The notes below the pieces were generated by a model. That model saw only the letters and a list, made by a program, of their open reading frames with translations, searched no databases and was not told the origin of the DNA. Source: Stigmatella aurantiaca DW4/3-1 (GTDB lineage Bacteria; Myxococcota; Myxococcia; Myxococcales; Myxococcaceae). Taken from it: a stretch of 64,000 nucleotides of DNA. The stretch lies in assembly GCF_000165485.1 (NCBI RefSeq), contig NC_014623.1, forward strand, positions 10,000,893 to 10,064,892, in the 5' to 3' direction. Made by a program: the position numbers and the translations under genes. Positions 3,627-54,266 of the stretch are shown here, one piece after another (within the stretch, counting starts at the first letter, position 1; the number at the start of each line of letters is the position of its first letter).

Positions 3627-3986
3627 ATGACCCGACTGCTGCTGTGTGTACTGGCCTTGAGCGCCGCGAGCGCCTGCAACAGCGACGCGCAGGAGCCCAT
3701 GCGTCAGGGCCGGTTGGCCTTGCGCTCGGGCGAATCGGTGGGCGGAATGACCGAGTGTGGCGTGAACCTGCCCTCCTGTCCCACGCATCTGAGCTGTGTG
3801 GCCTTCACCCTGGACGGCGTGAGTCAGGCGCGCTGTGTGGATCCAGCGGTCATCTGCACCGAGGTCCTCTCGTGTACGGGCGGAACCTCGTGCGCCATCC
3901 TGGAGTCCTACCCCAGCCGGGTGGTGTGCTCCGGCACCTGCAAGGGCGACGACTGCGACGAGTCCGTGTCAAGCTCGGGGCCATGA
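3627..3986 (+). CDS. Small Cys-rich lipoprotein
   Basis: This 119-residue protein has a lipoprotein signal (LLLCVLALSAASAC, Cys at about 17), so it is probably anchored in the envelope. The mature part is rich in cysteines (about 10), arranged in pairs such as CGVNLPSC, CTEVLSC and CSGTCKGDDC, suggesting disulfides. It has the look of the short Cys-rich secreted proteins common in myxobacteria. AAGGAAGG precedes the ATG. Its TGA overlaps the ATG of the DUF885 peptidase (ATGA), so the two are translationally coupled. Function unknown. Confidence 0.8.
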   Translation: MTRLLLCVLALSAASACNSDAQEPMRQGRLALRSGESVGGMTECGVNLPSCPTHLSCVAFTLDGVSQARCVDPAVICTEVLSCTGGTSCAILESYPSRVVCSGTCKGDDCDESVSSSGP

Positions 3987-5728
3987 CCTTTCTGAGTTCC
4001 CCTGGGAGAGCCTTCTTGCTCCCAGGCCTTGCCCTCCTGTGGGCCGCCGGAAGCGCGCACGCCGCGCCCTCTCCGGCGGAAGAAGTCGAGGCCCTCGCCG
4101 CGCAGGTGGTGGCCTTGAGCCTCGAGGCGGACCCCACGATCGCGTACTTCACCGGCCTGACGCCGCCCACGCATGGCCGCTTCGCGGACCACAGCCCCAA
4201 GGCCCTGAGGGCCCTCGAGCGCCAGGAGGACGCCCTCCTCACCCGGCTGAACGCCATCGATGCGAAGGCCCTTCCAGGGCCCTCCCTCACCACCCACGCG
4301 ATCCTCCGGGAGATGCTCGAAGCGGGACGCGGCCTGCGCATCTGCCATTCCGAGCAGTGGTCCCTCTCGCACATGTTCGGCTGGCAGCTCCAGTTTCCGG
4401 AGATCGCCGAGAAGCAGCCCATCGAGACCGCGGACCTGCGCGCGCAAGCCCTCCAGCGGTGGCGCTCGGTTCCCCGCTATGTGGACACGGAAATCGCGCA
4501 GCTCCGCACGGGGCTGTCCCGGGGGTACTCGGTGCCCAAGTCCGTGGTGCGCCGGGTCATCCAGCAGCTCGATGGCTTGCTCGCCGCCCAAGCCGAGGCG
4601 TCCGCTTTCTACTCCCCCGCCAAGCGCTCGGAAGACCCCGCCTTCCAGAAGGCCTTCGCCTCCGTCATCACCACGCAGATCCACCCCGCTCTGAAGAAGT
4701 ACCGGCAGTTCCTGGACAAGACGTATCTGCCCAAGGCCCGGGACAGCCTGGGCCTGTCCGCGCTCCCCAACGGCAAGGCGTGCTACGCGGCGTACCTGCG
4801 CTTCTACACGACGCTCGACCGCTCGCCGCAGGAGGTGTTCGACCTCGGGCGCCAGACGGTCGAGAAGAACGTCGCCGAGGTGCAGTCCCTGGGACAGAAG
4901 ACGTTCGGCACCAGCGGCTTCGCGGAGATCATCTCCCGGCTGAAGACCGACCCCGCCAACCGGTTCACCTCGGAGGACGAGGTCTTCACCTACTCGCGGG
5001 CGCTCGTCGAGAGGGCCCGCGAGGCCTCGGCGAACAGCTTTCTCAAGATGCCCAGCCAGCCCATCGAGGTGCGCCCCTATCCGGACTACATGAAGGGCTC
5101 GGGGGTGAGTTCTCACTACGAGTTCGAGCCGGATCCGAAAAAGCCCGCCCGCTACATGTTGCAGCTCGATGACTGGAAGGAGCTGCTGCGCTCGGACGCC
5201 GCGGTCACCGCGCTGCACGAGGCGTGGCCCGGACACCACATGCAGATCGCCACCGCGAGCGCCGCCGCCCAGACCGACATCGCGCGGCTGGCGTTCAACT
5301 CCGCCTACGCCGAAGGGTGGGCCCGCTACGCGGAAGCCCTCTCGGAGGAGTTGGGGCTCTATGACAGCGATGCCGCCAAGATGGCCCGCCGGGCCTGGCC
5401 CGCACGCGGCATGGTGGCGGATCCCGGGCTCCACCTCTATGGGTGGACACGCGAGCAGGTCACCGCCTACGCGAAGGAGACGGGCCGCTTCAACCAGGCC
5501 GTCGCCGAGGAGTTGGCGGACCGCATCGCGGTGATGCCCGGGCAGCTGACGGCCTACGACTCGGGAGGGTTGGAGTTCCGCGCGCTGCGCACCCAGGCGG
5601 AAGCGGCGCTCGGCCCCCGGTTCGACCTGCGCCAGTTCCATCAAGTGGTCCTGGAAAACGGCACCATCCCCCTCCTGCAACTGCGCGCCAACGTCGAGGC
5701 GTGGATTCAGAGCCAGCAGCCCCACTGA
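3983..5728 (+). CDS. DUF885 family zinc metallopeptidase-like protein, secreted
   Basis: This 581-residue protein starts at the ATG overlapping the previous stop. It has a signal peptide (LALLWAAGSAHA, cleavage before APSPAEE). It matches the DUF885 family, thermolysin-fold proteins carrying HExxPGHH. Here HEAWPGHH is at residues 412-419, with a downstream Glu in the NSAYAEGWARYAE segment as the third zinc ligand. All expected catalytic residues are visible, so it is probably an active periplasmic or secreted peptidase. Longer upstream in-frame reading is possible but would run through the lipoprotein gene and bypass the signal peptide, so it is rejected. It is followed 45 bp later by a dipeptidase, which suggests a peptide-degrading cluster. 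Confidence 0.9.
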   Translation: MTFLSSPGRAFLLPGLALLWAAGSAHAAPSPAEEVEALAAQVVALSLEADPTIAYFTGLTPPTHGRFADHSPKALRALERQEDALLTRLNAIDAKALPGPSLTTHAILREMLEAGRGLRICHSEQWSLSHMFGWQLQFPEIAEKQPIETADLRAQALQRWRSVPRYVDTEIAQLRTGLSRGYSVPKSVVRRVIQQLDGLLAAQAEASAFYSPAKRSEDPAFQKAFASVITTQIHPALKKYRQFLDKTYLPKARDSLGLSALPNGKACYAAYLRFYTTLDRSPQEVFDLGRQTVEKNVAEVQSLGQKTFGTSGFAEIISRLKTDPANRFTSEDEVFTYSRALVERAREASANSFLKMPSQPIEVRPYPDYMKGSGVSSHYEFEPDPKKPARYMLQLDDWKELLRSDAAVTALHEAWPGHHMQIATASAAAQTDIARLAFNSAYAEGWARYAEALSEELGLYDSDAAKMARRAWPARGMVADPGLHLYGWTREQVTAYAKETGRFNQAVAEELADRIAVMPGQLTAYDSGGLEFRALRTQAEAALGPRFDLRQFHQVVLENGTIPLLQLRANVEAWIQSQQPH

Positions 5729-11857: not shown

Positions 11858-12007
11858 ACTCCACTTTCACTGCAAATGGGTTGCCACCCACGCCCAACCT
11901 CAGCGGCCCAGGGCCCTTCACGCACGCTCCCGCGACTCCTGGGGACGTGGACGCCGCAGGATTCGCGTTGATAGCGTCCAGTGGCCTTCAGGGGAGGGCC
12001 TCATGCG

Positions 12008-12211
12008 ATGGCTCCAAGCAGGAAGGCGGATGCTTGCACTGCACTGGCCGGATGCCCCTCTGAGTTCGGCAAGGAAGGCCGCATCTCCAAGGCCGTGCAC
12101 AAGGATACGCAGGGGCAGCTTGTCATCAAGCGCTGCACGGAGGGGCGGCGCAAGGAGGTATGCGAAGGCCCCCATAGGGATCCCGACAAGTGCCGCGAGT
12201 GCGGCGGATGA
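12008..12211 (+). CDS. Small Cys-rich protein preceding a Cys-rich secreted protein
   Basis: This frame of 67 residues has its ATG at 12008, 9 nt after GGGGAGGG (11991-11998). A nearer ATG at 12003 lies in another frame and a longer in-frame start exists at 11981. The product has six Cys (for example ACTALAGC, RCTEGRRKEVC, DKCRECGG) and a basic middle. No signal peptide is clear. Its TGA overlaps the ATG of the next gene (ATGA at 12208), so the two are coupled. The arrangement of a small Cys-rich product followed by a large Cys-rich secreted protein is seen again at 52946-54266. Function unknown. Confidence 0.5.
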   Translation: MAPSRKADACTALAGCPSEFGKEGRISKAVHKDTQGQLVIKRCTEGRRKEVCEGPHRDPDKCRECGG

Positions 12212-13018
12212 ACAGGAGCGCCCTCATCGGCATCTGCGCGGGGATGCTGCTTCCGCTCCCGCTGGTGCTGCTGCTGGGAGGACTCCTTCAACCCCGTATC
12301 GCCCCCTCTGGGCTGCCTCTATGAGTTCCGGTATGGGCATGCCTCCTGCATCGACAGCCAGTGCACCACGGATGCGCAGTGCCCAGAAGGTCAGATGTGC
12401 GGCACACTGGCCACGGAGGACCCTGGACCGCTCGTGCGCCTCTGCATCCCCCTCGGTGTGCGGCAAGAAGGCGAAGGCTGTTTCAAAGTTTCAGCGGACC
12501 AGAAGGGCGCTTGTGCGGCAGGACTTCTTTGTGGTGGCAGGGATCATTGGTGCTCCCGCCCATGCCGCCTGGGCACTCCGGCAGCATGTCCCGAAGGCTT
12601 CTTCTGCGCGGACACCCCTCCCCAGCCCCTGTGCCTGCCGACCTGCGAGAAACGAGGCTGTGCCCCAGGCGAGCAGTGCATCCAGTTCGGTGATGGCGCG
12701 TCCATCTGCGCGCATGTGTACGGCACCGACTGCCAACAATCACCTTGTCCCGAAGGCCAGCGATGCACGGTGCGCACGGACCCACCGCAGCCAGGAAAAG
12801 CGTGGATGCGCTGTGTCGCGGAGTGCGGCCAGGATCATCCCCCGTGCGCCGATGGCATGGTGTGTGATGACTGGCAATGCGTCCCTCGCTGTGATCCCCA
12901 AGGGTCCGCCGTCTGCGCCGAGGGGTTCCGATGCCGGCAACCCTGGCCAGACGCTCCCTTTGCCTGTCATCCCGATTGGGCAATGACCGGCCCTTCGTCC
13001 AGCTCACCCGCTCCGTGA
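12208..13018 (+). pseudogene. Cys-rich secreted protein, apparent frameshift after signal peptide
   Basis: From 12208 the frame encodes a hydrophobic leader (MLLPLPLVLLLGGLL) and stops at about 12322. The remainder is in the next frame, open to 13018. It carries some 26 cysteines in repeats of the kind CTTDAQCPEGQMC, CPEGFFC, CAPGEQC and CPEGQRC, like EB/Dickkopf-type disulfide modules. No ATG, GTG or TTG of the second frame lies between the stop near 12209 and the internal ATG at 12395. The Cys repeats begin upstream of that ATG, so 12395 is unlikely to be the true start. One extra base somewhere around 12270-12320 would join leader and body. This may be a real mutation or a sequencing error. 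The paralogue at 53148 is intact. Confidence 0.6.
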
Positions 13019-52459: not shown

Positions 52460-52945
52460 CTCCCATTGGCCCGTGCAAGCCAGACAACCCTGGCGCCTGT
52501 CACCTCACGGACGCTGGAATCACAGACCCCGAGGCACACCCTCTGATGGCCTCCGCACAGCTCCGGAGCCCTCCCCCGCTGCCGCACGGACCCGTGGCGT
52601 CCCCTCAGGGGGCATGGGCAGGCCTCGAAATGAGGCCTCCCTTCCTCCCTCGGACGCCTCAAGGACACTTCCCGGACCCACCCCATGGGTTGTAGCCCGT
52701 TTGGGACCACCCCCCCACGGGTTGTACGCAGGGGCGGTTGGATCCACCCCAGCAGGACCTCCTGGGCCGCTCCATCAAACCCGGAAGGTTGTCAAGTACG
52801 TGGAGGATGTGCTAGGGAGGCCGCCAGCCTGGAACCGCTGGGAACGGGGAGCAACACCCTCAGTGTGACCCACCTGATGAATGGCCGGGGGCCCTTGTTG
52901 ACCGCTTGCGTGCGGCTGAATCAGGATCTCGTTTGAATCCAAGGA
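52460..52945. other. 486-bp intergenic region with short repeats
   Basis: No gene is supported. GGCCTC/GAGGCC with loop GAAAT sits at 52621-52637. Near-repeats of a CACCCC(A)-x-GGGTTGTA word lie at 52678-52693 and 52709-52727. The promoters of the sigma factor and the small Cys-rich peptide should be here. Confidence 0.35.
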
Positions 52946-53134
52946 ATGGGGGGGTTCTTGAAAATCCAAAAGAGGCGCAGTCTGCGTTGGCTGGTCGCTG
53001 CGGCGCTGGGGGGTGCCATCCTGGCTGGGACGGTGGCCTACGCACAACGAAGGGATTGTTGGGAGTGCAAGCCCTGCGGATGTTCGCCCGATGGGGTCAA
53101 TATCCTGTGCTGTGGCTCTTACGGCTGCGGGTAA
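52946..53134 (+). CDS. Secreted small Cys-rich peptide (62 aa)
   Basis: The peptide has a clean signal (LVAAALGGAILAGTVAYA, cut before QRRDC). A mature part of about 26 residues carries seven Cys: CWECKPCGC-SPDGVN-CC-SYGC. This density points to a disulfide-linked miniprotein or a metal-binding peptide. ATG 52946 has AAGGA directly before it. A TTG at 52958 with a G-rich stretch upstream is an alternative start. It precedes the large Cys-rich secreted protein by 13 bp, repeating the arrangement at 12008-13018. Family not recognised. Confidence 0.7.
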   Translation: MGGFLKIQKRRSLRWLVAAALGGAILAGTVAYAQRRDCWECKPCGCSPDGVNILCCGSYGCG

Positions 53135-53147
53135 CACCGAGGCCGCC

Positions 53148-54266
53148 ATGCGACTGCGACAAGGCTTCCTGGCAGCAGCGGTGATATTGATTGCATTATC
53201 GACCGCGACCACGGTCGCAAAACCATGGGGCTGGTTATCGCAGACAAGCGAACCGCCCGCCCCTCCCGCGACACCTCCGCCGCCGGATGCAGTTCGGCGG
53301 CTGGGGAGTACGCCCGATGTGAGCGCCGCCGGCTTTGCCTTGCCAGCGGCCTCGTCTGGACAGCCCATGGCCAGGGCTCTCCTTGCCAGTCAGAGCTTCT
53401 CCAGGCCTCCCGAAGTCCCTCGTCCCTGGCTTCCACCCACGGCCGCGGAGAAGCGCCCGCCCGGGGCTCCCCCCGAAGGCGCCCCGGCCCACGCCCTGCC
53501 AGCCTCTGGAATGCTCTGTTCCTTCGATGGAGGCCTCTTGCATTGCGGTGCCTGCCGGAGTGACAGCGATTGTCCCACGGGCAGTGGCTGTGTCGCCAAC
53601 CGGGAGACGCGCCGCTTCGAGTGTCTCGCCTCCGAGTGCGAAGAGGATGCGCACTGCTTCGCGGGCCTCGTCTGCCGCCCCGTGACGACCGGCGCCACCG
53701 GCCCCGTCGTGCGCCGGTGCATGCCCGCGGGGATGCGCCACGAGGGCGAGCCGTGTGATGGGTTGTTCATCTCCCAGCAAGGCGCCTGCCAGGAAGGCCT
53801 GTCCTGCCACCGGGGCACGTGCAGCCGCCCCTGTCAGCCCGGGGACGCGGCGAGCTGTCCCGAAGGGCATATCTGCGAAGAGGGCCTCAACGGTCCAGCC
53901 TGCTTCCTGGATTGCCGCGCGCGCGGCTGCGCGATGGGCCAGCAGTGCAAGCAGTTGAATGATTCGGAGTATCAGTGTCTCTCGGACGTTCAGGGCGACT
54001 GTCCCGAGAAGGCCTGCGGCGAAGGGGAGCGCTGCAACCTGCGCCTGTCCCAGGACAGTGGCGTCTTCTGGTGCGCGCCGCTCTGCAATCCGCTCCACGA
54101 GGACAGTTGCCCCACCGGGCAGGTCTGCGGCATCGGAAGCCCCACCATCAGCACGTGCTTCCGGCGCTGTGACCCGATGGCGCCGGATGCCTGCGGCGAC
54201 GGGTGGGAGTGTGCCACCGTCACCGAGGACCTGACGCAGTGGGGATGCCGGCCGTTCGTTCCCTAG
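53148..54266 (+). CDS. Cys-rich secreted protein (disulfide repeat type)
   Basis: This 372-residue protein has a signal peptide (FLAAAVILIALSTATTVA) and a Pro/Ala-rich linker (about 30-110). A Cys-rich body then has some 36 Cys in blocks such as CRSDSDCPTGSGCV, CEEDAHCFAGLVC, CQPGDAASCPEGHIC and CGEGERCNLRL. ATG 53148 is chosen for its leader; an in-frame upstream reading from 53013 lacks a signal. It is paralogous in style to the frameshifted 12208 gene. Role unknown: perhaps a surface or matrix protein in myxobacteria. A hairpin at 54274 follows. Confidence 0.82.
   Translation: MRLRQGFLAAAVILIALSTATTVAKPWGWLSQTSEPPAPPATPPPPDAVRRLGSTPDVSAAGFALPAASSGQPMARALLASQSFSRPPEVPRPWLPPTAAEKRPPGAPPEGAPAHALPASGMLCSFDGGLLHCGACRSDSDCPTGSGCVANRETRRFECLASECEEDAHCFAGLVCRPVTTGATGPVVRRCMPAGMRHEGEPCDGLFISQQGACQEGLSCHRGTCSRPCQPGDAASCPEGHICEEGLNGPACFLDCRARGCAMGQQCKQLNDSEYQCLSDVQGDCPEKACGEGERCNLRLSQDSGVFWCAPLCNPLHEDSCPTGQVCGIGSPTISTCFRRCDPMAPDACGDGWECATVTEDLTQWGCRPFVP

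Follow-up and report, generated by a model that had tools for sequence, protein, structure and literature searches.

A family of two-gene cassettes for Cys-rich proteins

The window that we analysed, a 64,000-nucleotide stretch of the Stigmatella aurantiaca DW4/3-1 genome (G000:C1:10000893-10064892, in a single contig of 10.26 Mb), contains a pair of adjacent genes from a dispersed family of two-gene cassettes in which a small Cys-rich gene precedes a large one. Related social bacteria of the soil share this pairing, suggesting a two-part system at the cell surface that has yet to be described. Members of this family keep the two genes adjacent, their small and large products diverge jointly, the genes are under purifying selection, and the type of small partner has rarely switched. 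Because of the conserved gene order, the joint divergence and the exported character of the products, our preference, which is a tentative one, is for an envelope or surface complex in which the large protein would form a rigid rod and the small exported protein its partner.

The peptide gene of the window (positions 52946-53134, + strand) encodes a 62-aa precursor with a hydrophobic signal region at approximately residues 1-33 and a seven-Cys tail. As the first-pass annotation had described, 26 residues with seven Cys (DCWECKPCGCSPDGVNILCCGSYGCG; 53054-53131, + strand) are present from Asp37 of the precursor, and these are predicted to form a β-hairpin from residues 37-46 and 52-60; cleavage after an AYA motif, which we judged by eye, would instead give a mature peptide of 29 residues. 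The open frames at 52946-53134 and 53148-54266 bear out the 13-bp spacer that had been reported between the stop codon of the peptide gene and the ATG of the large gene (53135-53147, + strand). The large gene (53148-54266, + strand) encodes a protein of 372 aa with 34 Cys, not the 36 previously counted, all of them in residues 123-372. Its product begins with a hydrophobic segment (53163-53219, + strand; residues 6-24 from the sequence by eye, with a model helix at residues 7-19) that could be a signal peptide or an uncleaved membrane anchor, and continues with a proline-rich linker (53220-53513, + strand; residues 25-122) that has 24 Pro in 98 residues and no Cys. The 34-Cys domain follows (53514-54263, + strand; residues 123-372), and AlphaFold2 predicts that it consists of tandem small disulfide modules; the last Cys lies five residues before the C-terminus, with no hydrophobic helix at this end. 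In comparison with genome G005, the dN/dS of the large gene is 0.28 overall, 0.15 in the Cys domain and 0.55 in residues 1-122. Both neighbours of the pair, a DUF6596 sigma-factor-like gene and a bioA-type transaminase gene, are on the opposite strand.

The first-pass annotation had proposed that this two-gene module is repeated at 12 kb of the window. This held in part, as the large genes are homologous and the order of a small followed by a large Cys-rich gene is present at both places, but the small genes are unrelated and the 12-kb copy is broken. The small gene there (12003-12211, + strand) is a broken lipoprotein gene that matches our lipoprotein profile at positions 14-70 only, and the broken large gene (12208-13018, + strand) aligns with residues 119-369 of the 52.9-kb large protein at 38% identity; the two genes overlap at 12208-12211, with the large ATG on the stop codon of the small gene. 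An intact relative of this cassette is found in G005 (locus L078, 86% DNA identity). Against L078, 4 nt near 12040 are missing from the small gene and ~107 nt near 12292-12302 from the large one, which breaks both 12-kb frames.

Of the 59 relatives searched, 15 have homologs of the large protein (E ≤ 0.001); these 15 belong to the same family, and 24 genomes from the order's other families gave none. Confident matches are all within one bacterial family, the Myxococcaceae. We listed 139 places with a large gene and up to at least 19 copies in one genome, copy numbers that are lower bounds as candidate scoring was partial in many genomes. Many of the more distant large members are ~300 aa and are preceded by a lipobox gene of 66-75 aa instead of a seven-Cys peptide gene, the lipobox being followed by a CPxxFGxxG...KD motif and further Cys. 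The profile of these lipoproteins matched 47 of the 96 family genomes and 47 of the 147 class genomes, all 47 of them inside the family, and the peptide profile matched 31 places in 26 of the 96 family genomes. In another search, peptide matches above E 4e-4 were dropped as chance. Comparison of the two profiles (probability 8% over three columns) left homology of the peptide and lipoprotein families unsupported. When a pattern drawn from the peptide was used to scan named genomes, it found five myxobacterial loci, with a large gene present at five of five, and one weak match elsewhere, in Asticcacaulis (27% identity), which was set aside as chance. We rejected a phage origin, as neither the peptide profile nor the large protein had relatives in viral contigs and the four proteins scanned had no PHROG match.

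Small and large genes seem to be inherited together

Our pairing test covered 139 large places, 15 peptide places and the 75 listed of 85 lipoprotein places in shared genomes. A large-family gene lay downstream, on the same strand and within 1 kb, at 15 of 15 peptide matches (0.008 expected by chance) and at 72 of the 75 listed lipoprotein matches (0.044 expected). The first-pass annotation had made its proposal depend on the pairing being conserved in related genomes, and it is. In a second locus set, a large match accompanied every small gene examined (28 of 28 peptide and 30 of 30 lipoprotein loci), and the pairing was also present in genera g23 and g43, neither of which contributed rows to the large-protein profile. 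Examination of 30 of the 31 peptide places placed a large-family match after all 30, on the same strand and within ~400 bp. Small genes without a large gene were rare (3 of 90, all three of them lipoproteins, among the matches listed), and one of these three (G006:C28) has a broken large gene just past the 1-kb limit. None of the 139 large genes had both small partners and 52 had neither; some of these partnerless genes carry remnants of small genes, and some may carry partners that both profiles missed. One locus (L073, G006:C68:187367-193933) has a single peptide gene followed by two tandem large genes of the peptide branch.

That social bacteria have these two-gene cassettes in multiple dispersed copies, part of them decayed, would fit a toxin/immunity pair, in which one protein, secreted or delivered by contact, would be toxic and its partner, such as the small lipoprotein, would confer protection on the producer; small lipoproteins can indeed serve as immunity proteins. 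We consider this quite unlikely, since the abundance of partnerless large genes and the scarcity of unpaired small genes among those listed are the reverse of what such a pair would predict, and none of the four proteins scanned gave a PADLOC match. Selection on the large genes also speaks against it. In reciprocal pairs between genomes (at least 60% identity and no stops, hence intact genes only), the large-gene dN/dS was 0.09-0.32, and it was 0.10-0.32 in eight reciprocal pairs, some sharing loci, in which the lipoprotein was undetected on both sides; these values are gene-wide averages that include time before partner loss, with several dS above 1. Among the 11 lipoprotein-branch loci that we classified in the window genome, four have an intact lipoprotein gene, one (the 12-kb copy) a partial one and six none detected, and the matched part is free of stops in 9 of the 11 large frames; a twelfth place (L072) is a fragment. 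The large gene thus appears to stay functional in the absence of its small partner, which argues against a large toxin held in check by the small protein.

The SitBA system, a set of toxin cassettes that act in outer-membrane exchange, resembles the cassettes of the window family in that genes for exported proteins, including one lipoprotein, lie side by side at several myxobacterial loci, as far as the accessible parts of PMC5562445 and PMC8546572 describe it. It differs in that the lipoprotein of the window family is upstream, Cys-rich and only ~50 residues long past the lipobox, with no toxin domain found; SitB is a predicted β-barrel, and the term cysteine-rich does not occur in the accessible text of either paper (PMC5562445, PMC8546572). 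We rejected membership in the SitBA(I) cassettes, for which a lipoprotein with a C-terminal nuclease-type toxin domain beside an immunity gene would be expected: the lipoproteins have 66-75 aa, the four scanned matched no toxin family, and the flanks of the window pair are the opposite-strand sigma-factor-like and bioA-like genes.

A quick tree built from 118 large proteins, in which 36 of 114 inner branches are unsupported and several long rows are flagged, requires a single change of the partner label (peptide versus lipoprotein) among the 105 paired members. When the 13 partnerless rows are included, three labels need 11 changes, because the partnerless rows are scattered on the tree, compared with 38.7 changes for shuffled labels. 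The distances between small proteins also correlated with those between their large neighbours (r = 0.87 in the peptide set of 30 pairs and r = 0.83 in the lipoprotein set of 37, with 0 of 2000 permutations as high), and part of this cross-genome correlation reflects the shared species tree. Within single genomes, the correlation was 0.81 in G001 (9 pairs; 3 of 5000 permutations as high), 0.80 in G002 (10 pairs; 0 of 5000) and 0.72 in G006 (11 pairs; 0 of 5000), and it was not significant in G000 (r = 0.75; 5 pairs, 938 of 5000) or G004 (r = 0.89; 6 pairs, 544 of 5000). As these pairs sit in single genomes, the species tree is not the cause of the within-genome correlation, and the cassettes seem to duplicate and diverge as units. 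Pairing, tree and co-divergence together strongly support a repeated module in which a small Cys-rich gene of exported type precedes a large Cys-rich one. From the co-inheritance and parallel divergence, we infer that the small and large proteins may be in physical contact.

Another reading of the same adjacency is that the small gene encodes an independent exported peptide or a coupled leader, and is kept beside the large gene for reasons of expression. This would account for the equal position that two sequence-unrelated small families occupy, and for the tight coupling seen in the 13-bp spacer at the window locus and the overlap at 12208-12211. We find it rather improbable, given that the divergence of the small sequences tracks that of the large ones inside three of the five genomes tested and that the mature peptide is itself conserved, with a dN/dS of 0.24 against G005 (0.26 for the whole peptide) and seven Cys in 25 of 30 peptides.

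Predicted disulfides of the seven-Cys peptide

The cysteines of the window peptide are at residues 38, 41, 44, 46, 55, 56 and 61. The AlphaFold2 model of the precursor is of low confidence (mean pLDDT 61.5), with values of 78 at residues 41-50 and 73 at residues 51-60, and it contains a hairpin with strands at residues 37-46 and 52-60. C41 and C56 occur together in 26 of 30 peptides and are jointly missing from four, and neither occurs alone; this paired loss looks like that of a disulfide. It corresponds to two losses on the tree of the large partners (27 scored), and the bootstrap range also gives two; the well-supported branches alone force just one. The peptide at L073 is among those without both C41 and C56. 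The outer Cys pair among 27 peptides is 38-61 in 16, 40-59 (the form seen in genus g23) in 8, and 38-59 in 3, and one peptide lacks C46 and so has six Cys. Because the positions face each other in the predicted hairpin, we infer disulfides 38-61, 41-56 and 44-55, with C46 as a spare; the three 38-59 peptides, which keep C38 and end at C59, fit the proposed outer bond less well.

An odd number of Cys in most peptides and the CxxCxC motif could also point to a metal- or thiol-handling pair, in which the Cys ligands bind a metal or buffer the redox state. Exported proteins meet an oxidising compartment, however, the window large domain has an even number of Cys (34), and the paired loss of C41 and C56 resembles that of a disulfide. 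The only Pfam match in this direction, of the broken 12-kb lipoprotein to a ferredoxin model, is insignificant (E 0.54), and we regard this role as very improbable.

The main rival with outside support is a set of protease inhibitors, in which the peptide would be a miniature pacifastin-type inhibitor and the large protein would consist of knottin-like inhibitor modules in a row, guarding the cell or matrix from its own or prey proteases. The pacifastin-core spacing CxxCxC-x2-3-G-x3-6-C-x3-5-C is present in 21 of 26 peptide tails, a likeness to the pacifastin-like domains that the accessible text of PMC13388995 (2026) reports, from structure-based detection, in large myxobacterial genomes of 10.8-13.0 Mb; none of the six myxobacterial genera or groups that we looked for is named in the accessible main text. 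Weak Pfam matches of large members to a carboxypeptidase A inhibitor (E 0.021) and a Squash inhibitor (E 0.056), in one member each, and weak VIA-align rows to AmFPI-1 and SLPI point the same way. The full six-Cys pacifastin pattern, however, was present in 0 of 26 tails, with the spacing taken from general knowledge and the Asn/Gly features from the accessible part of PMC13388995. The peptide departs from that domain in that its first Cys is not 9-12 residues upstream, no Asn follows Cys2 and an extra Cys lies beside Cys5. The bonds may differ as well: pacifastin disulfides are 1-4, 2-6 and 3-5 in the accessible text (PMC13388995), and the 2-6 bond would join C41 to the C-terminal Cys, whereas C41 co-varies with C56. 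Moreover, no pacifastin model appeared in the Pfam matches of 12 members, in a scan whose HMMER filters remove most matches above E 0.1, the remaining weak Pfam matches are to families that are not inhibitors (Dumpy_DPY and Dickkopf_N, three members each), and the lipoprotein partner of the other branch would be left unexplained. On balance, we judge the inhibitor role unlikely.

The large protein as a putative rod

The AlphaFold2 model of the large protein is of low confidence (mean pLDDT 63.9, pTM 0.36), as are most of the proline-rich residues 25-122 in it. Foldseek with the large protein gave a best E of 4.9e-4 at TM 0.13 and 0.21, and VIA-align, which mainly tested residues 120-230, gave a best Z of 3.2 over 30 residues. 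The lists contained weak rows of EGF-, furin- and knottin-type folds, including Pvs25, R-spondin and ceratotoxin; we did not name a fold from these lists, as the matches are too weak and absence from the lists proves nothing, and no useful solved structure was related by sequence. The likeness to knottin, Dickkopf, furin-like and EGF-type modules lies in the tandem arrangement of small β-hairpin modules held by disulfides and in weak Pfam matches to Dickkopf_N. Unlike those modules, the proteins described here are bacterial, are confined to one family as far as we searched, and combine a low-confidence model with the lack of a strong sequence match.

Neither protein of the window pair had a Pfam or NCBIfam match at E ≤ 1, PADLOC and PHROGs matched 0 of 4 proteins at E ≤ 0.1, and the lipoproteins scanned had database matches far under the cut-offs or none. 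The best Pfam E was 0.14 among 12 peptides, in the filtered scan mentioned above, and 0.0068 (Dumpy_DPY) among 23 large members. The sole known family with more than a marginal link to the large proteins is TIGR04201 (Myxo_Cys_RPT), which 10 of 23 large members match at E ≤ 1 (best 3.9e-5). Its cut-off of 25 bits is passed by a relative in the window's own genome (G000:C1:13895, 25.7 bits); the 12-kb large relative scores 18.7 bits as protein and 22.2 bits in the genome, and the window large protein has no match to this model.

TIGR04201 is the Cys repeat of TraA (MXAN_6895), an outer-membrane exchange receptor whose C-terminus has a MYXO-CTERM tag, a membrane helix and an Arg-rich end, according to the accessible text of PMC3325183. 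The large family resembles TraA in a short Cys repeat of myxobacterial proteins, to which part of its members have weak matches, and differs in having no PA14 match and no C-terminal membrane helix of the MYXO-CTERM type; no small Cys-rich partner gene is mentioned in the accessible part of PMC3325183. PA14, the lectin-like domain of TraA itself, was absent from the Pfam matches of 23 large members at E ≤ 1, and MYXO-CTERM was absent from their NCBIfam matches, the latter being meaningful only if the library includes the model. We found no description of these gene pairs in the open-access literature, which misses most subscription papers, and the accessible part of a PilY1 paper (PMC13190605) contains nothing on these genes.

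In the two-part surface complex that we favour, the N-terminal hydrophobic segment, the linker and the string of disulfide-stapled modules of the large protein would make up a rod that is the constant part of the system, with a linker that, in the members paired with a peptide, is long and rich in proline. The small partner of the commoner branch would be a lipoprotein of ~70 aa that anchors the rod; in the rarer branch, which includes the window locus, it would be a hairpin of 26-29 residues with three stacked disulfides and a spare Cys that caps or links the rod. The expected steps are export to the periplasm or surface, lipidation, disulfide pairing and contact between the partners, for a role that may be structural, adhesive or in recognition, in the envelope or the matrix, with a small partner that would be dispensable in some copies. 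If this is correct, an expanded Cys-rich family of social bacteria is made up of two-gene units whose small partner is of either of two unrelated kinds, which would pose a testable biochemical question and may tie the family to the Cys-repeat type of a kin-recognition receptor. The seven-Cys peptides would in addition provide a natural miniprotein set with sequence evidence for disulfides.

A more far-reaching version, which we offer as a long shot, is an as yet undescribed social or surface-recognition system of fruiting myxobacteria with many TraA-repeat-like rods per genome, each with a dedicated partner. The partner would once have been swapped for the unrelated seven-Cys hairpin, whose spare Cys would lock it covalently to the rod or to a neighbour's matrix.

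Upstream DNA and genomic neighbourhoods

Upstream of the peptide gene, we identified a promoter-like pair, GGTTGT-N16-GTGCTAGG (52787-52816, + strand), as a candidate dedicated promoter of this gene; a sigma-70 scan found none. The exact form occurs once genome-wide, and its reversed control had no match. A looser form was present at 4 of 30 distinct peptide loci, in G000, G005, G004 and G001, which are of the window's genus and in which the surrounding DNA has otherwise diverged, and at 0 of 76 lipoprotein loci; on these counts we rejected a promoter common to all cassettes. A conserved genomic neighbourhood was also rejected: by eye, L083-L085, all from Archangium, have some neighbours in common with one another and none with L081, L082 or the window.

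Several other observations were made at individual loci. Two broken large-family copies in the window genome (L069 and L071, G000:C1:7368127 and 7339331) are 29 kb apart with near-identical upstream sequence; a tRNA-Met gene ends ~170 bp before the large match at L071, no tRNA was found at L069, and the two may represent a duplication near a tRNA gene. In two Archangium genomes (L084 and L085, at ~3967-4866), a frame of ~300 aa lies upstream of the peptide gene, which we take to resemble the DUF2381/TIGR02268 paralogous family. Downstream of the cassette in a Myxococcaceae MAG (L082, 6789-8915), a frame of 708 aa with 77 Cys perhaps encodes another Cys-rich surface protein.
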